Shown piece after piece: positions 19,394 through 61,126 of a stretch of 64,000 nt of DNA. The translations under genes were made by a program, and so were the position numbers. Origin of the DNA: Neisseria elongata subsp. elongata. Lineage in GTDB: Bacteria > Pseudomonadota > Gammaproteobacteria > Burkholderiales > Neisseriaceae. Position 1 is the first letter of the stretch, and every line of letters begins with the position of its first letter. The notes below the pieces were generated by a model. The model saw nothing but the letters and a program-made list of their open reading frames with translations, was not told the DNA's origin and ran no database searches. The stretch covers positions 1-64,000 of the forward strand of contig NZ_FOPS01000002.1 of the NCBI RefSeq assembly GCF_900113545.1. The letters are read 5' to 3'.

Positions 19394-19507
19394 ATGGCCC
19401 GCCCCGCATTTTCCACCCGCCCTTTCCGGGCCGCATGCCGCGGCGCATCCGTCATTGTCTGCCGTTGTTTCGCAAAACCCCGCCTTCGCGGGGTTTTTGC
19501 CGAATGA
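19394..19507 (+). CDS. Putative pyrB leader peptide
   Basis: A 37-codon ORF with AGAGG upstream of its ATG. Seven of the residues are Arg (positions 3, 9, 12, 16, 24, 30, 32) and three are Cys. Its last codons run through an intrinsic terminator (19474-19498), its stop codon is 9 bases beyond the T-run, and pyrB starts 14 bases after that stop. This is the geometry of the enteric pyrBI leader, where a ribosome close behind RNA polymerase stops the terminator from forming. No sequence similarity to the enteric peptide is claimed. Whether it is translated is unproven. Confidence 0.6.
19474..19498 (+). terminator. Attenuator terminator upstream of pyrB
   Basis: AAAACCCCGC/GCGGGGTTTTT with a CTTC-type tetraloop, a textbook intrinsic terminator inside the leader ORF, 24 bases before the pyrB start codon. 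It contains no uptake sequence, unlike nearly all other terminators in the window. Confidence 0.88.
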
Positions 19508-19521
19508 AGAAAGGAAACCGA

Positions 19522-20442
19522 ATGCCCAACCCGCTTTACCGACAACACATAATTTCCATTTCCGACCTGACGACCGAACAGCTCGAACTGCTGCTTCAGA
19601 CGGCCTTGAAGCTGAAAGAGCACCCGCGCGGCGACCTGCTCGAAGGCAAACTCATCGGCTCATGCTTTTTCGAACCCTCCACCCGCACGCGCCTGTCGTT
19701 TGAAACCGCCGTACAACGCTTGGGCGGCAAAGTCATCGGCTTTGCCGACGGCGCGAACACCAGCGCGAAAAAAGGCGAAACCCTCGCCGACACCGCCCGC
19801 ATCATCTCCAGCTACACCGACGCCATCATCCAACGCCACCCCAAAGACGGCGCGGCGCGCGTGTCCGCCGAGTTTTCCAAAGTCCCCGTCATCAACGCCG
19901 GCGACGGCACCAACCAACACCCCAGCCAAACCCTGCTCGATCTCGTTACCATCTACGAAACCCAAGGCCGTCTGAACAAGCTCAAAATCGCCATGGCGGG
20001 CGACCTCAAATACGGCCGCACCGTCCATTCCCTCTGCCAAGCCCTCAAACGCTGGGACTGCGAATTTGCCTTCGTCTCCCCGCCCAGCCTCGCCATGCCC
20101 GAATACATCACCGAAGAACTCGAAGCCGCAGGTTGCCGTTACCAAATCCTGCCCGACCTCGAAGCCGCCGTCGAATGGGCGGACATCCTGTATATGACCC
20201 GCGTCCAGCGCGAACGCTTTGACGAACAAGAGTTCGCCAAAATCCAAGGCAAATTCAACCTCAACGCCGCCATGCTCGCCAACGCCCGTCCCAACCTGCG
20301 CGTGCTGCACCCCCTGCCGCGCGTTGACGAAATCCACCCCGACGTCGATGCCACGCCGCACGCCTACTATTTCGAGCAGGCGACCAACGGCGTTTACGCC
20401 CGCATGGCGATTTTGTCGCTGGTGTTGAACGAAGAAGTGTAA
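19522..20442 (+). CDS. pyrB: Aspartate carbamoyltransferase catalytic subunit
   Basis: Condenses carbamoyl phosphate with L-aspartate, the first committed step of pyrimidine synthesis. The 306 residues have the carbamoyl-phosphate loop [10 protein letters not shown] (51-60), K84 of the 80s loop (KKGET), H106 and the NQHPSQ segment (131-136). The start is the ATG behind AAGAAAGG; an upstream in-frame ATG at 19435 would lie within the leader and is rejected. Two uptake sequences lie in the coding region (near 19606 and 19965). pyrI follows after 9 bases, so the holoenzyme is the enteric-type c6r6 complex. Confidence 0.96.
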
Positions 20443-20451
20443 GGGAAAAAT

Positions 20452-20910
20452 ATGGAAAATAAAAAACTCAGCGTCGAAGCCATTGAAAACGGCACCGTCA
20501 TCGACCACATCCCCGCCGGGCTGGGCTTGACCATCCTGCGCCAGTTCAAACTGCTGCATTACGGCAGCGCCGTAACCGTCGGCTTCAACCTGCCGAGCAA
20601 AACCCAAGGCAGCAAAGACATCATCAAAATTTCCGGCGTGGCGTTCGACGATGCCGCCGCCAACCGGCTGGCGTTGTTCGCGCCCGAAGCCACCGTCAAT
20701 ACCATCGCCGATTTCAAAGTGGTGGCCAAACGCCGCCTGACCCTGCCCGACGAAATCGCCGAAGTGTTCCGCTGCCCCAATGCCAACTGCGCCAGCCACG
20801 GCGAACCGGTGAAAAGCCGCTTTTCCATCCGCGGCCAAGGCAGCCAGACCAAGCTCAAATGCCATTACTGCGAAAAAACCTTCCCGCGCGAATTCGTATT
20901 GGATGCCTGA
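20452..20910 (+). CDS. pyrI: Aspartate carbamoyltransferase regulatory subunit
   Basis: Binds CTP/UTP and ATP and confers allostery on PyrB. The 152 residues have the N-terminal allosteric domain ([19 protein letters not shown] at 14-32) and the C-terminal zinc domain with C108, C113, C137 and C140. It is 9 bases after pyrB behind AAGGG, clearly one operon. The DUS-pair terminator at 20918-20973 ends the transcript. Confidence 0.97.
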
Positions 20911-20917
20911 TGCGGAT

Positions 20918-20973
20918 AGGCCGTCTGAAAAACAGGTTCCGACATTGCCGAAGCCCGTTTCAGACGGCCTTTC
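20918..20973 (+). terminator. DUS-pair terminator after pyrI
   Basis: AGGCCGTCTGAAA (20918-20930) and TTTCAGACGGCCT (20958-20970) followed by TTT. Confidence 0.85.
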
Positions 20974-20991
20974 CAAATCGGGCATATCCTT

Positions 20992-20997
20992 TATAAT
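20992..20997 (+). promoter_or_regulatory. Probable -10 element for orn
   Basis: Perfect TATAAT 33 bases before the orn start; the possible -35 (TTTCCA, 16-bp spacing) is weak. Confidence 0.4.
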
Positions 20998-21029
20998 CCG
21001 CCGCTTTCCCATTCAAAAGGCCGTCTGAA

Positions 21030-21587
21030 ATGACCCAAAACGCAAACAACCTCTGCTGGCTCGATATGGAAATGACCGGGCTTGACCCCGAACGCGAACG
21101 CATTATCGAAGTCGCCATGATTATCACCGACCCCGATTTGAACGTCTTGGCGCAGTCCGAAGTTTATGTCGTCCACCAAAGCGACGAACTGCTCGACGGC
21201 ATGGACGCTTGGAACACCGCCACCCACGGCCGCACGGGGCTGACCCAACGCGTGCGCGAATCGCGGCTGACCGAAGCCGAAGTGGAACAGAAGCTGCTGG
21301 ACTTTATCGCGCAATGGATTCCCGAAAAAGCCACGCCGATGTGCGGCAATTCCATCCATCAAGACCGCCGCTTCATGGTCAAATACATGCCGCGCCTCGA
21401 AGCGTATTTCCACTACCGCAATCTGGACGTGTCCACCCTGAAAGAACTCGCCAAACGTTGGAATCCGCCTGTTGCCAAAGGCGTGGTGAAACGCGGTTCG
21501 CATCAGGCTTTGGACGATATTCTCGAAAGCATCGAGGAAATGCGTTACTACCGCGAAAATTTCTTGAAACTGCCCGAGGCCGTCTGA
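21030..21587 (+). CDS. orn: Oligoribonuclease
   Basis: DEDDh 3'-5' exoribonuclease that degrades 2-5 nt RNA and pGpG, essential in many Proteobacteria. The 185 residues have D12 and E14 ([10 protein letters not shown]), D112 (HQDRRFM), H158 and D162/D163 (GSHQALDD). Both gene ends are made of uptake sequence: a DUS ends exactly at the base before the ATG (AGGCCGTCTGAA-ATG), with AAGG 9-12 bases upstream as the only ribosome site, and the last codons GAG GCC GTC TGA (EAV-stop) are an in-frame DUS. Confidence 0.96.
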
Positions 21588-21639
21588 AAACTCAGAACGG
21601 TAGATTGGGCAGTAATACCCGGCCTGCCGCCGAATCATC

Positions 21640-21739
21640 GTTCTTGCGCAGGCGGGAATCCAGCCTTCTAGATTTCGGCAGCCTTCAGACAAATCACCGC
21701 AGTTTGCGGTTTGTCCCGGATTCCCGCCTGCGCGGGAAT
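21640..21739. repeat. NIME-type unit: dRS3 repeats flanking an RS element
   Basis: A perfect dRS3 (ATTCCC-N8-GGGAAT) is at 21720-21739 and a degenerate one (GTTCTT-N8-GGGAAT) at 21640-21659; the 60 bases between are a neisserial RS-type element (CTTCAGACAAATCACC, then GCAGTTTGCGGTTTGTCCC). It fills most of the 205-base orn-phosphoesterase gap. dRS3 copies are known filamentous-phage integration targets in meningococci; none is inserted here. Confidence 0.85.
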
Positions 21740-21792
21740 GACGTAGGTAATCTGTTTTCCACCAATCCTTTTTCAGACGGCCTCCGACCATC

Positions 21793-22842
21793 ATGTCCTA
21801 TCAATACCGCCAATCCCTGCCCGACACGCCGCTGGACATCGTCGGCGACGTTCACGGCGAATTTGCCGCCTTCCAATCGCTGCTGCACCGGCTCGGTTAC
21901 CGCGACGACGGTTTCCATCCTCACGGGCGGCGGCTGGTGTTCGTTGGCGATTTGTGCGACCGCGGTCCCGACAGCCCCGCGATGCTGGCGTGGTTCAAAC
22001 AGGCTTATGAATGCGGATGGGCATGGATGGTTTTGGGCAACCACGAATTGAACATTCTTGCCGACGACCCGAAAGACGGCTCCGGCTGGTTTTTCGATGT
22101 CCGCGCCGAAAAAGACGCCCATTACGCGCCGTGGCATTGCGTTGAAGAGAAAGAGAAAACCGAATTGTGCGCATGGCTTGCCGAACAGCCGCTGCTGCTG
22201 GAGCGCGAAGACCTGCGCATCGTCCATGCCGCTTGGCTGCCGCCGCAAATCGAATGCCTCGAAGAAGCCAAGGGCGAAAGCCTGACCGCGCAATACCGCC
22301 GCTTCGATGCCGAGTTGAAACACCGCCTTCAGACGGCCTCTTGGTATCCCGACTACCTCTACGAACAGGCGCATTACGCCCCGCAGGCGGAAAATCCAGA
22401 CCATGCGCCGCCGCCCATGCCCGCCACAGCGCGATACGAACTCGAACGCAGCCGCCTGCATCCGATACGCGCCCTCACCAGCGGCGTGGAGCGTTTGGCG
22501 GACAAGCAGTTTTACGCCGGCGGACGCTGGCGCGGTACGACCCGTTGCGCGTGGTGGGACGACTACCGCGACGATAAGCCCGTCGTGATTGGCCATTATT
22601 GGCGCAGTTGGCAGCCGTCTCCCGCCGCCGTTGCCGCCGAACGGCTGTTGCTGCCGCAGCAGCCGGATGTCTGGCACGGAGCGCGGCGCAACGTGTTCTG
22701 CGTCGATTTCTCGATAGGTGCAAGCTGGCGGGCAAGGAAATTCCCGCAGAAATACCGTCCTGAACAGTTCAGGCTGGCGGCGTTGCGCTGGCCGGAGAAG
22801 GTGTTGGTGTTTGAGAACGGCGAATGCGCGGCGACGCGTTAG
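21793..22842 (+). CDS. PPP-family metallophosphoesterase
   Basis: Calcineurin-like phosphoesterase of 349 residues. The three metal-binding motifs are complete: GDVHGE (18-23), GDLCDRGP (52-59) and LGNHE (81-85). A later PVVIGHYW segment supplies a further metal His. Such proteins include Ap4A hydrolases and PrpE-type serine/threonine phosphatases, so the substrate is not determinable here; the protein is longer than either and has its own C-terminal part. A strong DUS terminator follows. Confidence 0.85.
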   Translation: MSYQYRQSLPDTPLDIVGDVHGEFAAFQSLLHRLGYRDDGFHPHGRRLVFVGDLCDRGPDSPAMLAWFKQAYECGWAWMVLGNHELNILADDPKDGSGWFFDVRAEKDAHYAPWHCVEEKEKTELCAWLAEQPLLLEREDLRIVHAAWLPPQIECLEEAKGESLTAQYRRFDAELKHRLQTASWYPDYLYEQAHYAPQAENPDHAPPPMPATARYELERSRLHPIRALTSGVERLADKQFYAGGRWRGTTRCAWWDDYRDDKPVVIGHYWRSWQPSPAAVAAERLLLPQQPDVWHGARRNVFCVDFSIGASWRARKFPQKYRPEQFRLAALRWPEKVLVFENGECAATR

Positions 22843-22860
22843 ATGCGGATACGGACAGAT

Positions 22861-22907
22861 AAAAGGCCGTCTGAAAAAACGTTTTGAGGTTTTTCAGACG
22901 GCCTTTT
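22861..22907 (+). terminator. DUS-pair terminator after the phosphoesterase gene
   Basis: AAAAGGCCGTCTGAAAAA pairs with TTTTTCAGACGGCCTTTT. From 22908 to 23111 I see no gene, only a 10-mer DUS near 23072. Confidence 0.9.
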
Positions 22908-41858: not shown

Positions 41859-41896
41859 AGGCCGTCTGAAAAAATAAAACTGCTTTCAGACGGCCT
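41859..41896. repeat. Inverted DUS pair upstream of parB
   Basis: AGGCCGTCTGAAA (41859-41872) and TTTCAGACGGCCT (41884-41896) in the divergent phosphatase-parB gap. It is upstream of both genes and so is not placed to end either transcript. Confidence 0.85.
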
Positions 41897-41939
41897 TTCC
41901 ATTAAAATAGGACGGTATTATCCGAAAGAAGCAAAAATT

Positions 41940-42797
41940 ATGGCAAAACAACCGAGCGGCCTCGGACGCGGCCTCGATTCCCTTTTGTCCGGCAGTATAG
42001 AAGACGGCCGAGACGAACGACTAACCACGGTAGCCGTAGGCGACATCAAGCCCGGACGTTACCAACCGCGCGTGCAGATGGATGACGAAGCATTGCAGGA
42101 ATTGGCGGAGTCCATCAAAGCCCAAGGCGTTATTCAGCCGGTTATCGTGCGCGAACACGGATTATCGCAATACGAGTTGATTGCCGGGGAACGCCGTTGG
42201 CGTGCCAGCCAATTGGCCGGGCTGACCGAGATTCCCGTCGTCGTTAAAAACATCAGCGACGAAACCGCGCTGGCAATGGGTTTGATTGAAAACCTGCAAC
42301 GGGAAAACCTCAACCCGATTGAAGAAGCACGCGGCCTGAAACGTCTTGCCGACGAATTCAGCCTGACGCATGAAACCATTGCCAAAGCCGTCGGCAAAAG
42401 CCGCAGTGCGATTTCCAATACCCTCCGCCTGCTGGCCTTGCCGGAACCGGTTCAGGAGCTACTGTACCGCCGCCACTTGGAGATGGGGCATGCCCGCGCA
42501 TTGCTGACACTGCCGGTAGTTGATCAGTTGGAATTGGCTCAGAAAGCGGTTAAAAACGGTTGGTCGGTGCGCGAAGTCGAGCGTCGCAGCCAGTTGGCGC
42601 AACAGGCAAAAAAAAGCAGTGTCGAGAAAACCATTCATCCCGATATCCGGCGGTTGAATGAAACATTAACGGCCGAGTTGGGCGTGAGTGCCGAAGTCAA
42701 AAGCAGTAACGGTCGAAAAGGTAAAATCGTCCTGCATTTTGACAATCCGGAAACTTTAGATGCACTGTTAAAACGGTTAGGTGTGCCGTTTGATTGA
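41940..42797 (+). CDS. parB: Chromosome-partitioning protein ParB
   Basis: ParB/Spo0J-type protein that loads on parS near the origin. The 285 residues have the N-terminal CTPase/clamp domain (YQPR motif near 41, the ELIAGERRWRASQLAG box) and a helix-turn-helix (TIAKAVGKSRSAISNTLRLLALP), then a C-terminal dimer domain. parA is not adjacent in this window, and no match to the 16-bp consensus parS was found. It precedes the atp operon, as in other Neisseria and many bacteria. Confidence 0.95.
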   Translation: MAKQPSGLGRGLDSLLSGSIEDGRDERLTTVAVGDIKPGRYQPRVQMDDEALQELAESIKAQGVIQPVIVREHGLSQYELIAGERRWRASQLAGLTEIPVVVKNISDETALAMGLIENLQRENLNPIEEARGLKRLADEFSLTHETIAKAVGKSRSAISNTLRLLALPEPVQELLYRRHLEMGHARALLTLPVVDQLELAQKAVKNGWSVREVERRSQLAQQAKKSSVEKTIHPDIRRLNETLTAELGVSAEVKSSNGRKGKIVLHFDNPETLDALLKRLGVPFD

Positions 42798-43043
42798 ATA
42801 CGCAGCAAATTAGAGCCGGAGTTGAAGCAATAAATCACCGGAAATACCTGTCGAAAAAGCAGAAAATGAAACAATGGCATAGATGAAGGCCGAATTATCT
42901 TTAAATGCGGCAGACACCTTGTCATTTTGCTAAGAACTGTTAAAAATGGCCGCAAAGCCGAATGGGAAGTTTGAAAACGTAACTTTCTATAACGGTTGCA
43001 TCGGCAGGTTATAAAATTATTTCACGAAAATTAACCTGTTTGC

Positions 43044-43072
43044 TTGACGGAAAACGGGGCATTCATTATAGT
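43044..43072 (+). promoter_or_regulatory. atp operon promoter
   Basis: -35 TTGACG at 43044-43049, 17-bp spacer, -10 TATAGT at 43067-43072, 35 bases before atpI. The 310-base parB-atpI gap otherwise shows nothing I can name. Confidence 0.75.
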
Positions 43073-43107
43073 AGTGCGGCCTATCCTGACTCTTGCTGTG
43101 TGCCCTA

Positions 43108-43467
43108 ATGGTAAAAATTCTTTATCTCCAACTTGCCGTGTTATTGGTGGTGGTTGCATTGAGCGGGTTGATAGCGGGGTCGCCTGCCGCATGGTCGGCG
43201 GCTGCCGGAGGGGTGAGTTATGTTTTACCTTCTGCTGTTACGGTCCTGTTCTTAAATATTTTCCGCAGTATGCCGCAATATGTCGGTTATGCTTTTATTT
43301 TCGGAGAAGGTTTAAGAATAGTGCTGGCACTGGTTTTAATGGTGGCATTCTTTGCCCTATATCACCAGGAGTTGCGGTTTATACCGTTTCTTTTAGGCTT
43401 GTTAGCCACCAGTCATGTGATTTTTTTTATTTTTTGGAAAGCAAAATATCATGTCAAGCGCAAGTGA
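43108..43467 (+). CDS. atpI: ATP synthase subunit I
   Basis: Small membrane protein encoded at the head of atp operons, thought to help c-ring assembly. The 119 residues have four hydrophobic spans (start MVKILYLQLAVLLVVVALSGLIAG, end RFIPFLLGLLATSHVIFFIFWKAKYHVKRK). ATG 43108 is preferred to the upstream TTG; there is no strong ribosome site. It overlaps atpB by 17 bases. The family is poorly conserved, and the call rests mainly on position and topology. Confidence 0.85.
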   Translation: MVKILYLQLAVLLVVVALSGLIAGSPAAWSAAAGGVSYVLPSAVTVLFLNIFRSMPQYVGYAFIFGEGLRIVLALVLMVAFFALYHQELRFIPFLLGLLATSHVIFFIFWKAKYHVKRK

Positions 43468-44323
43468 AACCGTGACTGCTGCCGACTATATCAAGCACCA
43501 TCTGCAAAGTTTGACCAGTTTGTCCGATGTGGCGAAAGGTCAAGGTTTGCAGAATATCGCCGATTTCTCTTATATCAACTTGGATGCCATATTTTTTGCA
43601 GTCGTTTTAGGTGCTTTGGGTTGCTTCCTGTTGCGCAGGGCGGCTGTAACAGCTACTTCCGGCGTTCCCGGCCGCTTTCAGGCTGCGGTCGAGCTGTTGT
43701 ATGAATTTGTTGATGATATGTGCAAAGGCATTATTCATAATGCAGAATCACGCAAGGCTGTTGCTCCTTTGGGTTTAACCCTTTTTGTATGGATTTTCCT
43801 AATGAATGCCATGGATTTGTTGCCGGTTGATTTGTTTCCTGTGACATGGCAAGGCATTACTGGTGATCATCATGCATTGTTGCGTGTAGTTCCAACCGCT
43901 GATTTAAATACATCGTTGGCCTTGGCAATTGGTGTTTTGTGTGTCTGCATCTATTACAACATTAAAATCAAAGGTGGCAAAGGATGGGTGCATGAGCTGT
44001 TTACAGCACCATTCGGTCCGTTTTTGGCTCCGGCCAACTTTTTGCTGAATATTTTGGAATTTCTATCCAAAACCGTTTCTCATGGTATGCGGTTGTTTGG
44101 CAATATGTATGCAGGTGAGCTGGTGTTTTTGCTAATTGCTTTGCTTGGCGGTGCTTGGGCTGCTGGCGGACATTTCAGTTTAATGGATCCCGTCTTGTTT
44201 GTGTTCCATATCGTTGCAGGTGCAGCTTGGGCTATATTCCACATTTTGATTATTACCTTACAGGCTTTTATCTTCATGGCATTGGCGTTCGTTTATATCG
44301 GTCAGGCACATGATGCCCACTAA
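43451..44323 (+). CDS. atpB: F0F1 ATP synthase subunit a
   Basis: Membrane stator subunit holding the proton half-channels. The 290 residues have the conserved SHGMRLFGNMYAGELVFLLIALL helix with the essential Arg, and the last helix HILIITLQAFIFMALAFVYIGQAHDAH. It starts inside atpI (17-base overlap), suggesting coupled translation. It is AT-rich. Confidence 0.95.
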   Translation: MSSASETVTAADYIKHHLQSLTSLSDVAKGQGLQNIADFSYINLDAIFFAVVLGALGCFLLRRAAVTATSGVPGRFQAAVELLYEFVDDMCKGIIHNAESRKAVAPLGLTLFVWIFLMNAMDLLPVDLFPVTWQGITGDHHALLRVVPTADLNTSLALAIGVLCVCIYYNIKIKGGKGWVHELFTAPFGPFLAPANFLLNILEFLSKTVSHGMRLFGNMYAGELVFLLIALLGGAWAAGGHFSLMDPVLFVFHIVAGAAWAIFHILIITLQAFIFMALAFVYIGQAHDAH

Positions 44324-44364
44324 GCATTATGTAATGGTTAAAGGTTTTATGTTCTAAAGTTTGA

Positions 44365-44658
<294 letters not shown>

Positions 44659-44731
44659 TCAGGGAAACTCTTATTCTGTATGAGCAGAATAGAAAGATTG
44701 CTTGATTAACTCTATACACGAAGGTTAAGTA

Positions 44732-45202
44732 ATGAATTTAAATGCAACCTTAATTGCGCAGTTAATCGTCTTTTTTATCTTGGTTTGGTTCACAATGAAA
44801 TATGTGTGGCCTCCGATTGCTAAGGCGCTTGATGAGCGCGCTGACAAAATCGCAGAAGGTTTGGCTGCGGCTGAACGCGGGAAGAGTGATTTTGAACAGG
44901 CTGAAAAGAAAGTTGCAGAACTCTTGGCCGATGGTCGCAATCAGGCTACCGAACTGGTAGCGAATGCGGAAAAACGTGCGGCGCAAATTGTAGAGGAAGC
45001 AAAGAATCAGGCTTCTGTTGAGGCTGCCCGTATCGCGGCTCAAGCAAAATCAGATGTAGAGCAGGAAACTAACCGTGCACGCGAAGCATTGCGTGAGCAA
45101 GTTGCTGCTTTAGCTGTAAAAGGTGCTGAAGCCATTTTGCGAAGTGAGGTTAATGCTGCCAAACATGCTGATTTGCTTGCTAACCTGAAGCAGGAGCTGT
45201 AG
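44732..45202 (+). CDS. atpF: F0F1 ATP synthase subunit b
   Basis: Peripheral stalk subunit of 156 residues. One N-terminal span ([23 protein letters not shown]), then a long charged helix ([33 protein letters not shown]...) that forms the coiled-coil dimer. Length matches E. coli b (156). It is 73 bases after atpE and 3 bases before atpH. Confidence 0.96.
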
Positions 45203-45205
45203 CTT

Positions 45206-45754
45206 ATGGCTGAGTTCGCAACTATTGCCAGACCTTATGCAAAGGCATTATTTGAACTGGCGAACGAAAAACATCAAATTGAATCTTGGTTGAGTGGGTT
45301 GAAGGAATTAGCATGGTCGGTAGCTCAGGCTCGTGTTGCTGCGCTGATTGAGGATACCCGAACTAATAGCAAGGAAAAAGCTGATTTTTTGCTCAAATTG
45401 CTTACTGATGAGCAGGTTGCGGGAGACAAAACTTTTCGTAATTTTGTTCATGTAGTGGCAGACGAAAAGCGGCTTTTGGTTTTACCTGAAATTTATGTTC
45501 AATATCAAGATTTAGTTTTATCGCGTAATAATACCAAGAAGGCGGTCATTTACAGTGCATTTGAATTTGCTAGCGAAGGGCAAAAGGCCAAAATCGTAGC
45601 AGATTTGGAGCAACATTTTAATACCCGGTTAGAAGCTGTTTTTAATGTTGAGCCTAGCTTAATCGCCGGAATTAAGGTGGAAGTGGATGATCAGGTATTG
45701 GATCTGTCTATACAGGGTAAATTGCAAAAACTGTATACGGCAATGACGAATTAG
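45206..45754 (+). CDS. atpH: F0F1 ATP synthase subunit delta
   Basis: Couples the b dimer to the alpha/beta crown. The 182 residues begin [19 protein letters not shown] and end with the conserved [23 protein letters not shown] segment. Three bases after atpF, and 10 bases before atpA. Confidence 0.95.
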
Positions 45755-45764
45755 GAGAGTTTTC

Positions 45765-47312
45765 ATGCAGCTTAATCCTGCTGAAATCAGCGAATTATTG
45801 AAAGCCAAAATCGAAAACTTAGACACAAAGCAAGAGATACATACTCGAGGTACGGTAATTTCCGTTACTGATGGTATTGTGCGAGTGCATGGCTTGTCAG
45901 ACGTAATGCAAGGTGAAATGCTTGAATTTCCGAATAATACGTTTGGTCTGGCAATGAACTTGGAGCGCGATTCGGTTGGTGCTGTTGTGTTGGGTGAATA
46001 CGAGCACATCAAAGAAGGAGATGAGGTTAAATGTACTGGCCGCATCTTGGAAGTGCCGATTGGCCGCGAATTGGTGGGTCGTGTAGTAAATGCACTGGGG
46101 CAGCCAATTGATGGTAAAGGTCCTATTGATACAAAACTGACAGCACCTATTGAGAAAATTGCGCCAGGTGTAATTGCTCGTCAATCAGTTGACCAACCTA
46201 TGCAGACAGGCGTGAAAGCTATTGACTCAATGGTACCCATTGGTCGAGGGCAGCGTGAGTTGATTATTGGTGACCGTCAGACGGGTAAAACAGCTGTTGC
46301 ATTGGATGCAATCGTCAATCAAAAAGGGACTGGCGTTGTTTGCATTTATGTAGCAGTAGGTCAAAAAGCATCTTCTATTGCGAACGTAGTTCGTAAATTA
46401 GAGGAGTATGGCGCAATGGAGCATACAATTGTAGTTGCGGCAACGGCTTCTGAAGCTGCGGCATTACAATTTATTGCGCCTTATGCAGGCTGTACTATGG
46501 GTGAGTTTTTCCGAGATAGAGGAGAAGATGCTTTAATTGTATATGATGATTTGTCTAAACAAGCTGTAGCTTATCGTCAAATTTCTTTATTATTGCGTCG
46601 TCCACCCGGTCGCGAAGCGTATCCTGGCGATGTGTTCTATTTGCACAGCCGCCTGTTGGAACGCGCTGCCCGTATCAATGCTGATGAAGTTGAAAAGCTG
46701 ACTGGTGGTGAGGTAAAAGGTAAAACAGGTTCTTTAACTGCACTGCCAATTATTGAGACTCAAGCCGGTGACGTTTCAGCGTTCGTTCCGACTAATGTAA
46801 TTTCAATTACTGACGGTCAAATTTTCTTAGAAACTGATTTGTTTAACTCAGGTATCCGTCCTGCCATTAATGCAGGTATTTCCGTCTCCCGTGTTGGTGG
46901 CGCTGCCCAGACTAAAGTTATTAAAAAATTAGGCGGTGGTATCCGTTTAGCTTTGGCACAATATCGAGAGCTAGCAGCCTTCTCACAATTTGCATCTGAT
47001 TTAGATGAAGCCACACGCAAGCAGTTGCAGCATGGTGAGGTAGTTACTGAATTGATGAAGCAAAAGCAGTTCAGTACATTAAATACAGCTGAGATGGCTT
47101 TGACCCTATGGGCTATTAATGAAGGTTCATACGGAGATGTTCCTGTTTCTAACGCATTATCTTTTGAAGCTGAGTTCTTGAGTTATGTGCGTACTCAATA
47201 TCCAAAAGTTTTAGAAAGCATCAATGAAACAGGTGCTATGTCTGATGATAATGAAAAAGCCTTAACAGAAGCGATGAAGTCTTTCAAAGCGTCTTATGCA
47301 CATACGGCATAA
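45765..47312 (+). CDS. atpA: F0F1 ATP synthase subunit alpha
   Basis: Non-catalytic nucleotide-binding subunit of F1, 515 residues. Walker [10 protein letters not shown], the [18 protein letters not shown] segment, and the signature [24 protein letters not shown] are all present. AT-rich codon use runs through the whole gene. Starts behind AGGAG. Confidence 0.98.
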
Positions 47313-47334
47313 GCGATAAAGAAAGGAGTCTAGA

Positions 47335-48213
47335 ATGGCTGTAGGGAAAGAGATTCTCACCAAAATTCGTAGTGTTCAGAATACACAGAAGATCACTAAA
47401 GCGATGCAAATGGTGTCAACCTCTAAGATGCGTAAGACTCAGGAACGGATGCGTTTAGCGCGTCCGTATGCTGATAAAGTGCGTTTGGTAATGGGCCATT
47501 TGGCACAAACACAAGAAAACCACGGTATTAAATTATTGAGCGAGCGCCGAGAGATACGTCGCGCTGGTTTTATTTTAATTACTACAGATAAGGGTTTATG
47601 TGGTGGGCTAAATGCGAATGTGCTAAAGAAATTTTTAGCACAAATGCAAGATTACCAGGAACGTGGTATTGAGACTGATGTAGTTTGTATCGGTAGTAAA
47701 GGTTTAGCTACTTGCCAGCGCATTGGGTTAAATGTAATTGCCAGCGTAGTAAATTTAGGTGATACGCCTAGGTTAGAATTGTTGGTCGGTTCATTGACAG
47801 AGCTGTTTAAGCGGTACGAACAGAACGAAATTGATATTATTCATATTGTTTATTCTGGTTTCGTAAATACTATGCGCCAAGAGCCTCGAATGGAAGTATT
47901 ACTCCCTATTGGGCGGAATACTTTGGAGGCAGCTCAAGTCGAAGGTCGGGGATATAATTGGGATTACCGTTATGAACCTACACCTATTGCTGTATTGGAA
48001 TACCTAGTTCGTCGTTATTTGGAATCTGTGGTTTATCAGGCGTTAAGCGATAATATGGCTTCAGAGCAGGCCGCACGTATGGTAGCCATGAAAGCTGCTA
48101 CAGATAATGCAGGTAATGCAATTAAGGAGCTGCGTTTGGTGTACAATAAATCGCGCCAAGCGGCTATTACTACAGAATTGTCAGAAATTGTTGCAGGTGC
48201 AGCGGCTGTATAG
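47335..48213 (+). CDS. atpG: F0F1 ATP synthase subunit gamma
   Basis: Central rotor shaft, 292 residues. It begins AVGKEILTKIRSVQNTQKITKAMQMVSTSKMRK and ends MKAATDNAGNAIKELRLVYNKSRQAAITTELSEIVAGAAAV, both canonical coiled-coil strands of the shaft. Ribosome site AAAGGAG, 22 bases after atpA. Confidence 0.97.
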   Translation: MAVGKEILTKIRSVQNTQKITKAMQMVSTSKMRKTQERMRLARPYADKVRLVMGHLAQTQENHGIKLLSERREIRRAGFILITTDKGLCGGLNANVLKKFLAQMQDYQERGIETDVVCIGSKGLATCQRIGLNVIASVVNLGDTPRLELLVGSLTELFKRYEQNEIDIIHIVYSGFVNTMRQEPRMEVLLPIGRNTLEAAQVEGRGYNWDYRYEPTPIAVLEYLVRRYLESVVYQALSDNMASEQAARMVAMKAATDNAGNAIKELRLVYNKSRQAAITTELSEIVAGAAAV

Positions 48214-48239
48214 CTTGCTGATTTGCATTTAGAAATTAG

Positions 48240-49646
<1,407 letters not shown>

Positions 49647-49658
49647 TAGGAGGCTGGC

Positions 49659-50084
49659 ATGGATGTCATGCGAGTTGAAGTGGTAAGTAACGAATACAAC
49701 ATCTATTCAGGCGAGGCCAGCTTTGTTGTGGTTCCGACTGTTCAGGGTGAGCTCGGTATTTATCCGCGACATGAGCCGATTATGAGTTTGGTACGGCCAG
49801 GTGCATTACGGCTGCAAATTCCAGGTGAAAAAGAAGAGGTTTTGGTAGCAGTTTCAGGCGGCGTTTTGGAGGTTCAACCTGATAAATTGACCGTATTGGC
49901 TGACGTGGCTATCCGTAGTAGTGAAATGGATCAAGCCCGTGCCGAAGAAGCGAAGAAGGCAGCAGAGGCAGGTATTGCCAAGGCTGCGGACGACGAAGCT
50001 TTGGCCAAGGCGCATAGTGCGTTGGCTGCTGCTCTTGCAGAACTCAAAACTCTCGACTATATTCGCTCAAGAAAACATCAATAA
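49659..50084 (+). CDS. atpC: F0F1 ATP synthase subunit epsilon
   Basis: Inhibitory/rotor subunit of 141 residues. N-terminal beta-sandwich (VVSNEYNIYSGEASFVVVPTVQGELGIYPRHEP) and C-terminal helical hairpin (DQARAEEAKKAAEAGIAKAADDEALAKAHSALAAALAEL). It is the last gene of the operon, 12 bases after atpD, followed by a terminator. Confidence 0.96.
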   Translation: MDVMRVEVVSNEYNIYSGEASFVVVPTVQGELGIYPRHEPIMSLVRPGALRLQIPGEKEEVLVAVSGGVLEVQPDKLTVLADVAIRSSEMDQARAEEAKKAAEAGIAKAADDEALAKAHSALAAALAELKTLDYIRSRKHQ

Positions 50085-50110
50085 TCTATATTTATATTTT
50101 AGATTAGATA

Positions 50111-50136
50111 AAAAGCACGGCTTGCCGTGCTTTTAT
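50111..50136 (+). terminator. atp operon terminator
   Basis: AAAAGCACGG/CCGTGCTTTT with loop CTTG. It has no uptake sequence. The following 340 bases (50137-50477) are very AT-rich and show no open frame or repeat that I can support. Confidence 0.9.
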
Positions 50137-50477
50137 TCAATTCTGTAATTATTTAATGCATTGATTTAAAATAAAATTTATTCATATTTTGAAGTTATGG
50201 CTAGATTAGTTTCAAAGATTTAAGTACTGTAAAAATAAATATCAAAGACCGGCCAAGAGTTTATTGGGGTAAGAAGAAGGAAAGATTAAATTAACACCCT
50301 CGGAATTCATTTTAATTGCAGATAATGGAGTAAGAGAACAAACGAGGCAGCTTTTGATGGGCTTAGTTTAATGGTGAAGTTGTTCTGTTCTTAATAAAAT
50401 TAAACTAGATAAATCAAAAGTTTTTCTCTTTGATGTTAGTTCGGATATATTAAGTTCTCTGAGTAAGGAAAAAAATT

Positions 50478-50873
50478 ATGGGAAAAATATTGTGTTTCGC
50501 TGTTGGGCTGCTATTGTCGGCTTGCGCGAGTATGCCAAGCAGTGAGGCGCTAAATGGTGAATGGCTGCCGGAGGAAATTGGTGGCAGTCCGTTTACTGCC
50601 CAAGCGAGTTTGACATTTGATAGCGAACAGCAGTTGCTCAGCAGTTATGCCGGATGCAATCGGCTGACAACTCGTTATAGTGCCGACAATGGGAAATTGG
50701 ATTTCGGTTATACGTCATCTACGAGGATGGCTTGTGATCCGGAACATAGCGAGGCAGAGCATAAAATCAGCCAAGTGTTTGTTCAGGCTGAGAGGTTTGG
50801 GATTCAAGACGGAAAGTTGTTGATTAAAGACGGGCAGGGGAATGTCCTATTGCGCGCTGTAAAATCGTCTTAA
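50478..50873 (+). CDS. META-domain (HslJ-like) lipoprotein
   Basis: A 131-residue lipoprotein: lipobox LLSAC (C16), then a META domain (LNGEWLPEEIGGSPF..., LTFDSEQQLLSSYAGCNRLTTRYSADNGKLDFG, STRMACDPEHSEAEHKISQVF), as in HslJ, linked to novobiocin resistance and heat shock in E. coli. The two Cys at GCN and MACD are typical. It stands alone after an AT-rich gap. Confidence 0.88.
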   Translation: MGKILCFAVGLLLSACASMPSSEALNGEWLPEEIGGSPFTAQASLTFDSEQQLLSSYAGCNRLTTRYSADNGKLDFGYTSSTRMACDPEHSEAEHKISQVFVQAERFGIQDGKLLIKDGQGNVLLRAVKSS

Positions 50874-50998
50874 GCATTTGTTTAAAAGAATATGACGGTA
50901 ATGCCTAATCTCACGGTGCAGTCGTTTTGAATGACCATGAGGCCGTCTGAAAATCGAAAACGGTAAAATTAGCAAACGGCGGCAGAATGCTTTTTATC

Positions 50999-57252: not shown

Positions 57253-57430
57253 ATCAATCTTTTCGTTGGGAATACAGTCAGGCCCGGCCATGCGGGCGGG
57301 CAGGCATTATACCGCGTACAGGCCGTCTGAAAGCAGGGTTGCCGACACCGTTTTCAGACAGCCTCACATGCGGACGGCGGAAACAGCTGTTGTCATGCGG
57401 TCTGATTGTGTATATGATAACGACCGTCGT

Positions 57431-57506
57431 GCCGGTGTAGCTCAGTCGGTAGAGCAGCGCATTCGTAACGCGAAGGTCGGGGGTTCGATTCCCTTCTCCG
57501 GCACCA
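57431..57506 (+). tRNA. tRNA-Thr (anticodon CGT)
   Basis: A 76-base cloverleaf with encoded CCA. Anticodon loop TTCGTAA (CGT). The anticodon stem has A31 opposite C39, and the acceptor has T6 opposite T67; the G27-A43 mismatch is shared with E. coli thrW as I recall it. D- and T-arms are normal. It ends in a DUS-pair terminator. Confidence 0.92.
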
Positions 57507-57517
57507 TTTCTACCGAT

Positions 57518-57554
57518 AAAAGGCCGTCTGAAAAATGGTTTTCAGACGGCCTTT
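57518..57554 (+). terminator. DUS-pair terminator after tRNA-Thr
   Basis: AAAGGCCGTCTGAAAA pairs with TTTTCAGACGGCCTTT. Confidence 0.9.
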
Positions 57555-57561
57555 GTGCAGC

Positions 57562-57591
57562 GTGTCGGATACAAGTATCCGACCTACGGCT
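57562..57591 (+). repeat. 30-bp direct repeat, left copy
   Basis: Begins GTGTCGGATACAAG and ends CGACCTACGGCT. The inner part (TCGGATAC/GTATCCGA) is itself a hairpin. It matches 59013-59042 at 28 of 30 positions. Confidence 0.9.
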
Positions 57592-57612
57592 GCTGAAAAG
57601 CGGGGATTGGAT

Positions 57613-57624
57613 TTCAGGTAGCCT
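57613..57624. repeat. Uptake sequence of a different dialect (AGGCTACCTGAA)
   Basis: TTCAGGTAGCCT, the reverse complement of AGGCTACCTGAA, known as the Eikenella-type DUS. Confidence 0.9.
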
Positions 57625-57638
57625 TTCTCGGAACGGGG

Positions 57639-58340
57639 TTAGTCGGTAGTGTTATCGCCATCGGTCTCGGCATCAGTATGGCGGGCAGATGGAGGAAGTA
57701 TATTGTAAAGCAACAGTTCGTGCGGCACGGTGGTTTGATCGCTGCCGGAAAAAGCAAGCTGGTTGTCGCTGTAACCCTTTTCTATGCCAAAGGTGGCAAC
57801 CAGTTTGCGGCCGGAGAGCTGCGGAATAATGTCGTTAAATGTAAATTCCACCGTGTTGCCTTGTTGGGTGGCGGATTTCAGGAATGGGAAGTGTTCTGTG
57901 GCCGGCAAAGATAATTTGATTTGGCCGGGCTTGGCGGCATCGGCGCCATCTAGGTTTGTATGCTCATGGATATGTTTGAACAGCCCGGCCAAACGGGATT
58001 TAATAATATAGTTGATACAGGCTTGGTCGGCGGTGTTGAGAAGCTCGGCATAGACTGGGTCGTCGGTGTCTGCTCCGGCAGCCTGCAAATTGGCGCGAAT
58101 GCCGAAACGGCAGCGTTCGGCGATATATTGGTCGCCGGGGTGGGCTTTATCGAATTCCTCTAGTCGTTGGGAGAATAATTCCATTCGACGGTAGAACTCC
58201 TCAAAACTGTATCCCAAACCAGGTTGAGGGCTGGCATGGGCGGGGCGGTTGGCGCGAGGCCGATGATGCGGTGTGGCTTGGACGGTAAAGGGCGCAGCAG
58301 CCAGCAAAGAAGCTAGTAAAACAATATATCGGTATTGCAT
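57639..58340 (-). CDS. Secreted protein of unknown function
   Basis: A 233-residue protein I do not recognise. Signal peptide MQYRYIVLLASLLAAAPFTVQA (1-22), a His/Arg/Pro-rich stretch, then a helical region (YSFEEFYRRMELFSQRLEEFDKAHPGDQ) with two Cys (ERCRFG and DQACIN), and a beta-rich second half ending in a charged, Thr/Asp tail. The start has AGGAACAAATC upstream; the frame is open to 58445 across a foreign-dialect DUS, which is rejected. It lies inside the region with AGGCTACCTGAA uptake sequences, so it was probably imported. Confidence 0.72.
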   Translation of the reverse strand: MQYRYIVLLASLLAAAPFTVQATPHHRPRANRPAHASPQPGLGYSFEEFYRRMELFSQRLEEFDKAHPGDQYIAERCRFGIRANLQAAGADTDDPVYAELLNTADQACINYIIKSRLAGLFKHIHEHTNLDGADAAKPGQIKLSLPATEHFPFLKSATQQGNTVEFTFNDIIPQLSGRKLVATFGIEKGYSDNQLAFSGSDQTTVPHELLLYNILPPSARHTDAETDGDNTTD

Positions 58341-58365
58341 GATTTGTTCCTGAATTAAGTTCGGA

Positions 58366-58412
58366 AAGAGGCTACCTGAAATATGGCTACCGTTGTTTTC
58401 AGGTAGCCTTTG
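58366..58412. terminator. Inverted pair of AGGCTACCTGAA uptake sequences
   Basis: AGGCTACCTGAA at 58369-58380 and its complement at 58398-58409, with AAAG and CTTT outside, the same build as the AG-DUS terminators but in another dialect. It would end the 123-residue gene on the minus strand. Confidence 0.85.
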
Positions 58413-58420
58413 GGCGGGCG

Positions 58421-58460
58421 GGTCGGATTCGGGAATCCGTCCCACAGTTGCTGCCTGAAA
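58421..58460 (+). repeat. Diverged copy of the flanking hairpin repeat, fused to a partial AGGCTGCCTGAA
   Basis: GTCGGATTC-GGGAATCCGTCC has the same layout as the two 30-bp repeats; GCTGCCTGAA (10 of the 12 bases of the Simonsiella-type DUS) follows at 58450-58459. Confidence 0.6.
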
Positions 58461-58533
58461 GCGTGAGTTTCAACGAGGTTAAAACCACGTGCGTGTGTTT
58501 TGTATCCACCCTACCCATGCAGGCTACGCTTGC

Positions 58534-58905
58534 TCACAATTCATCAGCGTAATTATTCTTAATAAATTCAATACACTCTTTCAATTTCTTTATAACAATT
58601 TCGGTTGGCATTACCACTACGATTTCATCAGTTAATAGGCTGTCTATTTTTGTCATCTCTTTGCCGACAATGACACCAAAGTGCTCTCGATACTGCTCAA
58701 CTTCGCTGCCATTAGGTACTTCTTCCAATATTTCCTTCAATAGGGTTTCAGACATTTCTAACAAATGCTTAACCCCCACTCCACCATCATCCATTAAGAA
58801 ATCTGCTAACCAGCCAAAGTTTTCATACCCACTACTCTCATGAAAAAGTACTCCAAACCGATTGCTACCGCTTTGAAAGAAATCTTTTGTAAAAATTAAA
58901 TTCAT
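58534..58905 (-). CDS. Small cytosolic protein of unknown function, AT-rich
   Basis: A 123-residue acidic protein with no signal peptide or membrane span: MNLIFTKDFFQSGSNRFGVLFHESSG at the N-terminus, then helices (VGVKHLLEMSETLLKEILEEVPNG) and a beta-type core (EHFGVIVGKEMTKIDSLL, EIVVVMPTEIVIKKLKECIEFIKNNY). The size, acidity and low GC resemble toxin-immunity proteins, but I see no toxin gene beside it, so this is only a possibility. It sits between imported uptake sequences and the right-hand direct repeat. Confidence 0.65.
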   Translation of the reverse strand: MNLIFTKDFFQSGSNRFGVLFHESSGYENFGWLADFLMDDGGVGVKHLLEMSETLLKEILEEVPNGSEVEQYREHFGVIVGKEMTKIDSLLTDEIVVVMPTEIVIKKLKECIEFIKNNYADEL

Positions 58906-59012
58906 GCTTAAGATCCATTAAATTATTTCATAAGAGGACAAACAGCAGGCGTAGCCCGCATAGCGGTAGTTGCAAGTCGGATTCTTGAATTCAACATTTG
59001 GATATAACGATT

Positions 59013-59042
59013 GTGTCGGATTCAAGTATCCGGCCTACGGCT
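59013..59042 (+). repeat. 30-bp direct repeat, right copy
   Basis: Begins GTGTCGGATTCAAG and ends CGGCCTACGGCT; differs from 57562-57591 at two positions. Same orientation, 1.45 kb apart, just before the end of mnmG. Confidence 0.9.
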
Positions 59043-59056
59043 AAAGCATCTGTTCC

Positions 59057-60943
59057 CTATTTCGCCCCCTTAAACCCGCGCTTCAAATGCACCATCAGCA
59101 ACGCCACCGCCGCAGGGGTTACGCCGGAAATTCGGCTGGCTTGTCCGACGGTTTCGGGTTTGTGCTGGTTGAGTTTTTGCTGCACTTCGGCGGATAATCC
59201 TTTGACTTTGCTGTAATCTATATTTTCAGGTAGCCTCAACATTTCCAAATCGCGGCGGCTGTCGATTTCTTCGTTTTGGCGGTCGATATAGCCTTGGTAT
59301 TTGACTTGGATTTCCACTTGCTCAATCACGTTTTCAGGCAGCCTGTACTCGGGTTCTGCGCCTTCGAGCGTCATCAGTGCGGCGTAGTCGAGGTTCGGGC
59401 GGCGCAGGAGGTCGTGCAGGTTGGCTTCACGGCTGAGTTTTTGTCCGAACACGCGGATTTGTTCGTCTTCGGCGAGTTTTTGCGGCGTGTACCACGTTGT
59501 TTTCAAACGTTGGATTTCGCGCTCGATGGCTTCGCGTTTTTCGTTGAACATACGCCATTGCGCTTCACCCACCAAGCCGATTTTGTGGCCGTCTTCAGTC
59601 AGGCGCATGTCGGCGTTGTCCTCCCTGAGTTGCAGACGGTATTCGGCGCGGCTGGTGAACATGCGGTAGGGTTCGTTCACGCCTTTGGTGATGAGGTCGT
59701 CCACCAATACGCCGAGGTAGGCTTGTTCGCGGCGCAGCAGGAGCGGGTCTTGTCCGCGGACGTATTGCACGGCGTTTGCGCCTGCGAGCAGGCCTTGTGC
59801 GGCGGCTTCTTCGTAGCCGGTCGTGCCGTTGATTTGTCCCGCGAAGAAGAGGCCTTGGATGGTTTTGGTTTCAAGGCTGGCTTTGAGGTTGCGCGGATCG
59901 AAGTAGTCGTATTCGATGGCGTAGCCGGGGCGCAGGATATGGGCGTTTTCCAGGCCTTTCATGCTGCGAACGAGCGCGATTTGGATGTCGAACGGCAGGC
60001 TGGTGGAGATGCCGTTGGGGTAGTATTCGTTGGTGGTCAAGCCTTCGGGTTCGAGGAAAATCTGATGGCTGTCTTTGTCGGCGAAGCGGTTGATTTTGTC
60101 TTCGATAGACGGACAATAACGCGGGCCGACGCCTTCGATTTTACCGGTGAACATGGGGCTGCGGTCGAAGCCGCTGCGGATAATTTCGTGTGTTTTCAAA
60201 TTGGTATGCGTAATCCAGCAGGACACTTGGCGCGGGTGCATTTCGGCGTTGCCGCGCACGGAGAAAACGGGCACGGGCGTGTCGCCGGGCTGTTCGGTGA
60301 GCCGGGAGAAATCAATCGTGCGGCCGTCGATGCGCGGCGGCGTGCCGGTTTTCAGACGGCCTTGCGGCAGGTTCAACTCGCGCAAACGTCCGCCCAGCGA
60401 TTTGGCGGCGGGGTCGCCGGCGCGGCCGCCTTCGTAGTTTTCCAAACCGATGTGGATTTTGCCGGACAAAAACGTGCCTGCGGTCAGCACGACGGCGCGG
60501 GCTTTAAATTCCACGCCCATCGCGGTGATTACGCCTGAAATACGGTCGCCGTCGAGCGTTACGTCGTCAACCGACTGCTGGAAGAGGTCGAGGTTTTCTT
60601 GGTTTTCCAGCATTTCGCGGATGGCGGCTTTATACAGGATGCGGTCCGCCTGCGCGCGCGTGGCACGAACCGCCGCGCCTTTGCTGGCGTTCAGGCGGCG
60701 GAACTGGATGCCGGATTTGTCGGTTGCCAACGCCATCGCGCCGCCGAGCGCGTCGAGTTCACGCACTAAATGGCCTTTGCCGATGCCGCCGATGGAGGGG
60801 TTGCACGACATTTGTCCGAGCGTTTCGATATTGTGTGTGAGCAAAAGCGTCTGCGCGCCCATGCGTGCGGCGGCAAGCGCGGCTTCCGTGCCTGCGTGGC
60901 CGCCACCGACGACGATAACGTCGTAGGTTTTGGGGTAAATCAT
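59057..60943 (-). CDS. mnmG: tRNA uridine-5-carboxymethylaminomethyl modification enzyme MnmG
   Basis: FAD enzyme that, with MnmE, makes (c)mnm5U34 in tRNA anticodons. The 628 residues begin [29 protein letters not shown] with the FAD motif, carry the [17 protein letters not shown] segment and the two Cys-bearing insertions, and end [22 protein letters not shown]. The main body is very close to the meningococcal enzyme. The 3' quarter contains two DUS of other dialects in frame (RLPEN near 59225-59236 and 59333-59344), so this end is mosaic. The start is the second of two nearby ATGs, as in neisserial homologues. Confidence 0.95.
59225..59236. repeat. AGGCTACCTGAA uptake sequence inside mnmG
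   Basis: Reverse complement on the + strand (TTCAGGTAGCCT). It encodes the RLPEN of [11 protein letters not shown]. Confidence 0.9.
59333..59344. repeat. AGGCTGCCTGAA uptake sequence inside mnmG
   Basis: TTCAGGCAGCCT on the + strand, the Simonsiella-type DUS. It encodes the RLPEN of [11 protein letters not shown]. Confidence 0.9.
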
Positions 60944-60974
60944 GTGGGTCATGTATGTATGCCTGTTTCAAGTG

Positions 60975-61012
60975 TTTCAGACGGCCTCCGAAGGTGTAGA
61001 GGCCGTCTGAAA
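60975..61012. repeat. Inverted DUS pair between EamA gene and mnmG (outward type, no U-run)
   Basis: TTTCAGACGGCCTC (60975-60988) and GAGGCCGTCTGAAA (60999-61012). A further single DUS follows near 61066. Confidence 0.85.
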
Positions 61013-61114
61013 AATAAATGGAAAATCAAACGCGCGATTGTACGCCGTTTCGCCTCGGGCGAGAAAGGCCGTCTGAAAACGCGGTTGCGATAACTGGAAG
61101 CTTCCGCCTGCCGT

Positions 61115-61126
61115 TTCAGGCAGCCT
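61115..61126. repeat. AGGCTGCCTGAA uptake sequence at the end of the EamA gene
   Basis: TTCAGGCAGCCT on the + strand. It supplies the last codons and the TGA stop of the transporter gene (GAG GCT GCC TGA, EAA-stop). Confidence 0.9.

Follow-up and report, generated by a model that had tools for sequence, protein, structure and literature searches.

A local excess of DNA uptake sequences (DUS) of another dialect, together with a lack of the native ones, marks DNA that came from another member of the Neisseriaceae (Hughes-Games et al. 2020, PMC7371117). The passages of that paper considered here map eight dialects and describe AG-DUS islands in gonococci and N. mucosa as well as an integrative and conjugative element (ICE) with king/simDUS. 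AG-eikDUS is known from Eikenella and N. shayeganii, according to portions of PMC3630211 and PMC11316581. In the same parts of PMC3630211, binding by N. elongata, an AG-DUS species, was 0.3% for AG-DUS DNA and 0.01% for AG-eikDUS DNA, 30 times less, and AG-eikDUS DNA gave no transformants in N. meningitidis. Here we describe a patch of AG-eikDUS in an AG-DUS Neisseria, the genome G000 (a 2.36-Mb draft), within a 64,000-nucleotide stretch referred to as the window. The patch contains a foreign cassette of about 1.4 kb that lies between a tRNA-Thr gene and mnmG. We put at about 70% the probability that an AG-eikDUS lineage near the genome G003 was the source of this cassette and of two short stretches at the mnmG 3′ end, which recombined into the tRNA-Thr/mnmG interval, with mixed-dialect fragments passing the barrier. 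G003 and G004 are two genomes of another genus, and their dialect suggests that they are of Eikenella or N. shayeganii type; the family set comprises 83 genomes.

The native dialect of the window is AG-DUS, AGGCCGTCTGAA, and the foreign ones are AG-eikDUS, AGGCTACCTGAA, and AG-simDUS, AGGCTGCCTGAA, which were searched for together with the pattern AGGCTRCCTGAA. A motif scan found exact AG-eikDUS 12-mers at 57613 (−), 58369 (+), 58398 (−) and 59225 (−), AG-simDUS at 59333 (−) and 61115 (−), and the 10-mer GCTGCCTGAA at 58450; all seven foreign copies listed by an earlier sequence-only reading of this DNA are where it had placed them. The pattern AGGCTRCCTGAA matches six times in the window, all within 3.5 kb, as compared to 0.02 expected, and none of 100 dinucleotide-preserving shuffles reached six. 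The claim that every other DUS in the window is AGGCCGTCTGAA holds for 71 AG-DUS but overlooks one AT-DUS (27080) and several one-mismatch copies. The foreign patch had been drawn from 57562 to 61126, which is too wide, as four AG-DUS (60351, 60976, 61000 and 61066) lie inside it and the tract shared with G003 stops near 59355. The stretch free of AG-DUS runs from 57553 to 60350 and holds four eikDUS and one simDUS.

The cassette (57593..59009) is 94.9% identical to G003:C1:1023644-1025071 and carries the AG-eikDUS at 57613, 58369 and 58398, the last two forming a terminator-like inverted pair (58369..58409). G003 carries this segment next to its own mnmG. The edges of G003-like identity are sharp at the cassette: the AI-2E-type gene on the left is 78.2% and the EamA gene on the right 70.4% identical to G003. 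Elsewhere in the window, at 14-28 kb, scoring 3 of 311 candidate places gave a best G003 match of 82% over 0.9 kb. The segment is rare in other genomes. It is absent from the mnmG neighbourhood of all 19 other relatives compared, none of which has a match of at least 90 bp to 57593-59009, and among the matches listed for 57400-59060 in 46 genomes of the same genus there are only tRNA, DUS and repeat matches, plus the second cassette gene, ORF2, in G030 (70%). Since the family searches scored a handful of top candidate places in each genome, an absent match is weak evidence. The first open reading frame (ORF) of the cassette, ORF1, has a homolog in G003 and none in the other 81 family genomes. 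These results bear out the proposal of an import from a relative using another dialect: native DUS are depleted, another dialect is enriched, and a genome of that dialect matches at high identity. The AG-simDUS at the 3′ end of the EamA transporter gene (61115..61126, −), which had been counted as part of the import, lies outside the shared tract in DNA without a high-identity counterpart in G003 and is probably unrelated.

The whole genome of G000 contains 109 matches to AGGCTRCCTGAA, 82 of them AGGCTACCTGAA, as compared to 2,809 AG-DUS. Copies of AGGCTACCTGAA number 2,836 in G003, 1,282 in G004 and 0 to 38 in 45 other genomes of G000's genus, with at least one copy in 41 of the 45; AG-DUS number 76 in G003 and 40 in G004. 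The foreign sites of G000 are clustered rather than scattered over the genome. Of the two outcomes that the sequence-only reading had named as refuting an import, neither is seen in the sense intended: the patch does not recur in the relatives compared, and the 82 copies of AGGCTACCTGAA, though numerous, are not spread evenly. Among the 100 of the 109 AGGCTRCCTGAA places taken into the cluster analysis (9 were absent from the listing), 76 fall in 11 clusters of at least three sites each, spanning 74 kb, while random placement clustered a mean of 9.4 and a maximum of 26 sites in 1000 trials.

Ten stretches of G000, covering the other ten clusters (one in part) and a site pair on C3, were compared with G003. 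G003-like DNA at 91.7-97.1% identity was found in seven of the ten other clusters, and thus, with the window patch, in 8 of 11. The blocks lie at C2:10.2-13.1, C2:63.6-77.6, C4:92.5-107.9, C7:187.6-202.8, C10:60.9-64.4, C10:179.4-184.2 and C12:55.4-57.0 kb, and neighbouring DNA is 71-76% identical to G003 where it matches at all. Several clusters are G003-like in part only, and identity falls to 82% and 91% in two short pieces within the C2 island. When the whole G003 genome was searched, nothing comparable turned up for the C10:51-53 kb cluster (sim/king sites). A comparison restricted to G003 stretches chosen for other reasons gave no match to the C3 pair or to the clusters at C6 and C10:338-353 kb, a result of little weight. 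Gene order in the C2 island differs between G000 and G003, and in the C4 island the two are about equally far from other Neisseria. The number of G003-like stretches suggests that the two lineages swap genes despite their different uptake signals. Contamination or assembly mixing was considered and rejected: identity in the blocks stays at 92-97% and does not reach 100%, the G003 assembly consists of a single contig, and AG-DUS stand on both sides of the islands within their contigs.

The islands also showed features of other kinds. The left part of the C2 island (C2:63277-67650) also matches G039, a genome of G000's genus, at 96%, and this match extends further left than that to G003. C10:338693-352522 has overlapping AG-simDUS/AG-kingDUS dyads in low-GC DNA (sequence covered, 329000-348900) and resembles the Kingella-type king/simDUS ICE described in passages of PMC7371117. 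AT-, king-, muc- and eikDUS occur within a few kb at C7:184510-187888. In the adjacent C7:187641-189710, which matches G003 at 97%, both genomes retain one AT-DUS and one mucDUS.

The shared blocks are bilingual. In blocks of at least 88% identity (45.2 kb), G000 and G003 agree at 25 AG-DUS and 34 eikDUS sites, a count biased because AG-DUS content was part of the reason for choosing the G003 stretches. The 34 include site 74635 twice but lack 58369, which was lost to an alignment gap, and the total is thereby unchanged. A set of 35.0 kb was found by whole-G003 searches regardless of G003 AG-DUS, with its G000 islands chosen by eikDUS. In this set the G003 copies contain 39 eikDUS, 19 AG-DUS (1.2 expected from the genome average), 2 mucDUS and 2 simDUS, and the eikDUS-selected G000 copies contain 35 eikDUS (1.2 expected), 20 AG-DUS and 5 simDUS. 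Altogether, 29 of the 76 AG-DUS of G003 reside inside shared blocks of at least 88%. Both dialects also meet in inverted pairs, counted as opposite-strand neighbours starting 12-40 bp apart in stretches chosen for foreign DUS. The pairs of the G000 islands comprise 15 AG/AG, 5 eik/eik, 5 AG/eik, 3 AG/sim, 1 eik/sim, 1 king/AT and 1 king/king; all 13 pairs in window 1-57000 are AG/AG. In the G003 stretches, 57 pairs are eik/eik, 11 AG/eik, 4 AG/AG, 2 eik/sim, 2 eik/muc and 1 AG/sim. Neisseria G017 and G044 share the mixed pair C4:99746/99762. At the aligned site C4:101812, G000 and G003 have eikDUS, G017, G044, G029 and G026 have AG-DUS, and G031 has mucDUS.

The right neighbour of the cassette, mnmG (GidA; 59057..60952, −), is a mosaic. 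Over 59056-60961 it is 95.4% identical to G003, which at 96% for the whole gene ranks first among the 79 other genomes that gave a match. In a tree of the mnmG body (59362-60952, 31 genomes), G000 and G003 both group with Neisseria G015, G026, G029 and G031 (support 0.98); within this group G003 joins G029/G031 (0.67; G029+G031 0.90), and G000 is placed next to G026 without support (0.14). Import of the whole mnmG into G000 was rejected, as the body belongs to this Neisseria clade. Windowed comparison showed that G000 and G003 differ from most Neisseria in two stretches of about 50 bp near the 3′ end. One (59206..59255, −) surrounds the AG-eikDUS at 59225 and is common to G003 and G031, and the other (59306..59355, −) surrounds the AG-simDUS at 59333 and is common to G003 and G021. 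The sequence-only reading had the import carry two unrecognised genes and the 3′ end of mnmG, and had called for a phylogeny of mnmG. The two genes and the two short 3′ stretches stand, while the body of mnmG in G000 is ordinary Neisseria.

G003 has its own share in this mosaic. At site 60351, where G000 has an AG-DUS, G003 has AGGTCGTCTGAA, the mucDUS of the Neisseria clade with which its mnmG body groups, and its congener G004 is far off in the body tree. G003 has thus imported a Neisseria-type mnmG body, which means that exchange ran both ways. Copies of mucDUS in the meningococcus have been read as earlier interspecies transfer in passages of PMC3630211. The proposed import is thus right as to a foreign donor dialect but is not a single one-way event, being one of several patches in a two-way exchange. 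Second, truncated mnmG 3′ ends occur near the full gene at G015:C1:110385-110677 and G029:C1:1382928-1383679, and are possible scars of cassette exchange.

The borders of the cassette suggest that the DNA downstream of mnmG serves as a cassette-exchange site. On the left are the tRNA-Thr (CGT) gene predicted by ARAGORN (57431..57506, +) and a resident AG-DUS inverted repeat, or hairpin (57519..57554), the last native-dialect pair before the patch according to the motif scan and repeat comparison. A palindromic 30-bp direct repeat abuts the patch (left copy, 57562..57591, +) and is absent from the corresponding place in G003; its right copy (59013..59042, +) is 93% identical to the left. No third copy within three mismatches exists in the window, but the cassette itself includes a 70% copy at 58420. 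Of 234 loci scanned for the exact pattern, 15 have the repeat, and it is missing from all G003 stretches and all ten island stretches of G000. Relatives have it near the mnmG 3′ end as well: G029 at 145 bp, G031 at 687, 198 and 158 bp, G026 at 1,436, 1,431 and 193 bp, and G015 at about 2.5 kb. What follows mnmG downstream varies among relatives. Six of 14 relatives' loci have a tRNA-Thr (CGT) at 1.7-6 kb from the 3′ end of the gene, in the same orientation in G031, G026 and G015 and inverted in G017, G027 and G047; in the other eight, G003 included, none is found within 7.5 kb of mnmG.

Perhaps G000 came to accept foreign DNA by a switch to an Eikenella-type ComP, but the receptor data do not support this. 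A search of the 83 genomes with ComP_DUS (PF16732) gave two tandem pilin hits in G000. The one placed in a tree groups with Neisseria G033, G012 and G039 and not with G003/G004; this ComP-like protein is of Neisseria type, and therefore no receptor switch is seen, with the true ComP of the two pilins judged by resemblance only. Uptake itself was weakly or hardly DUS-specific in the commensals tested, according to the authors of PMC3630211 in the passages used. We suggest, as the simplest passage, a route by transformation in which mixed fragments would form a bridge. An Eikenella-type genome would already have received Neisseria DNA with DUS of a Neisseria dialect, such as the mnmG body with its mucDUS. 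Fragments from such places could be recognised by Neisseria ComP and taken up, and homologous recombination through the Neisseria-like part would then bring the eikDUS-marked neighbours along. At the mnmG locus the bridge would be the mucDUS-bearing mnmG body of G003 beside the cassette. A wider proposal, which we make tentatively and hold to be rather doubtful, is that bilingual DNA acts as a lasting two-way passport: fragments with both dialects, including AG/eik inverted pairs, would shuttle between Neisseria and Eikenella, genes would gain a second dialect on round trips, and the barrier would leak at specific inherited fragments and not evenly.

Several findings weigh against import from an AG-eikDUS lineage by way of mixed fragments. 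The cassette-mnmG junction is 681 bp in G003 and 46 bp in G000, the G003 copy of the cassette differs by 5%, and the eikDUS genus is sampled by two genomes (G003 and G004), neither of which is the true donor. Both foreign sites in the mnmG 3′ end move among Neisseria too, as 59225 recurs in G031 and 59333 in G021. The eikDUS counts of the G000 islands are inflated, since these were chosen by their eikDUS content. With regard to the bridge, G003's part of the mnmG locus has no Neisseria-dialect site apart from a mucDUS, and the transformation ratio in N. elongata, relative to AT-DUS, was 0.04 for mucDUS as compared to 1.39 for AG-DUS (PMC3630211, Table 1, as given in the parts considered). The G003 copy of C10:60937-64442 likewise has one mucDUS and no AG-DUS. 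Finally, the receipt of Neisseria DNA by G003 at the mnmG locus makes the reverse direction possible for parts. Applied to the cassette and mnmG as a whole, this would have both pass from a Neisseria near G000 into the G003 lineage, with eikDUS gained there or from an older Eikenella source, which we consider unlikely. The Neisseria-derived, mucDUS-bearing mnmG body of G003, the 29 AG-DUS that it keeps in shared blocks and C10:60937-64442, where G003 is 94% identical to G000 and the best G004 match is 68%, would fit such a transfer; but the uptake sequences of the cassette are in G003's own dialect with no AG-DUS among them, and the mnmG body of G003 joins G029/G031 and not G000, if at 0.67 only. 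Densities in the shared blocks also resemble G003 for eikDUS (1.12 per kb as compared to 1.29 in native G003 DNA) more than G000 for AG-DUS (0.57 as compared to 1.19), a difference inflated by the eikDUS-based choice of islands.

A third lineage outside the 83 genomes, itself bilingual or exchanging with both, may have given the same blocks to G000 and G003. This seems to us a little less probable again than the reverse transfer: none of the 83 genomes has both AG-DUS and AG-eikDUS in bulk. Such a source would account for the two dialects being kept site by site in both genomes (25 AG-DUS and 34 eikDUS), for long blocks at 92-97% with none near 100%, for a C2 gene order unlike that of G003 and for the sharing of some blocks by G039, G031, G017 and G044. 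That the patch belongs to a self-transferring mobile element (ICE, prophage or transposon) is very improbable, although direct repeats frame it and a tRNA gene adjoins. An ICE would have integrase and conjugation genes and more than about 10 kb, while the patch has 1.4 kb and two small genes without a Pfam match; the repeat also stands near mnmG without the cassette in G031, G026 and G029, and neither ORF has a match among 72,556 plasmid records nor ORF2, the only one searched there, among 50,697 phage records. Least credible of all is chance or the drift of resident AG-DUS into eik and sim forms. A single base separates AG-simDUS from AG-eikDUS, and the copy at 61115, at the end of a gene, may simply be coding sequence, but AG-DUS and AG-eikDUS are three bases apart, six copies far exceed the expectation, and the whole segment, not the sites alone, is 95% identical to G003. 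Import from an AG-eikDUS lineage near G003 remains our preferred reading.

The cassette encodes two proteins. ORF1 (57639..58340, −) encodes 233 amino acids and, judging by its signal-peptide-like N terminus (by eye), a putative secreted protein. The G000 and G003 copies are 94% identical in amino acids and differ by 18 synonymous and 15 non-synonymous codon changes, for a synonymous divergence (dS) of about 0.12 and a non-synonymous divergence (dN) of 0.03. ORF2 (58534..58905, −; 123 amino acids) differs by 2 synonymous and 5 non-synonymous changes (dS 0.03, dN 0.02). No Pfam family was found for either ORF, NCBIfam gave insignificant matches only, and single-sequence structure models were poor, with mean predicted local distance difference test (pLDDT) scores of 47.5 for ORF1 and 51.9 for ORF2. 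MafI-type immunity genes are linked to EndoU toxins. In G030, a bacterial EndoU nuclease domain (PF14436, E 1.1e-11) is encoded by the ORF immediately upstream of the ORF2 homolog (64% amino acid identity), whose position makes ORF2 a candidate orphan immunity gene. No EndoU-type ORF adjoining ORF2 was recognised by eye in the ORF lists of the window or G003.

Two stretches of the window outside the patch deserve mention. Blocks within 19488-22904 are 95-97% identical to G029, and nearby 24.0-25.2 kb is 76% identical, which suggests further mosaicism within Neisseria. The 9 kb at 41885-50940 (GC 44.5%) have no DUS of the eight dialect motifs scanned; they seem by eye to hold parB and atp operon genes, and are probably ordinary core DNA.

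How far does this locus resemble systems already described? ORF2 shares with the MafI-type immunity genes of polymorphic toxins the EndoU toxin-domain ORF that precedes its G030 homolog, and differs from them in standing without a toxin in G000; mafB-mafI polymorphic-toxin and immunity genes are named in passages of PMC7371117. The site downstream of mnmG resembles the minimal mobile element (MME) of Neisseria, in which differing whole-gene cassettes occupy one place without transfer genes (PMC3898611, in part); in the patch, too, no transfer gene is seen. Unlike an MME, the exchange here crosses species, its donor belongs to a different genus with a different dialect, the cassette is framed by direct repeats, and the border genes are not constant. 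In the islands of Hughes-Games et al. a foreign dialect is likewise enriched and the native one lacking, but the passages considered stress large islands, shown to be ICEs, in which a single dialect mostly prevails, while here we find a small cassette and larger blocks with interleaved dialects and an AG-eikDUS donor. The words eikDUS and Eikenella are absent from the main text of that paper, and eikDUS islands in a Neisseria are not reported in the passages of PMC3630211 and PMC11316581 considered or in the titles listed, a search that left subscription journals uncovered. Import islands of foreign dialect are thus already known; what is new is the donor dialect, AG-eikDUS, and the bilingual setting. 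The dialect sequences and their hosts are those of Frye et al. (2013, PMC3630211, in part), where the barrier is the message. The dialects are described as efficient barriers between genera, and G000 and G003 nonetheless share eight places at 92-97% identity with both dialects kept. If mixed fragments are the way through, gene flow across a 12-base barrier becomes testable and the genes able to pass become predictable from sequence. The barrier between dialects that Frye et al. stress is here one of the widest, and it has been passed repeatedly.

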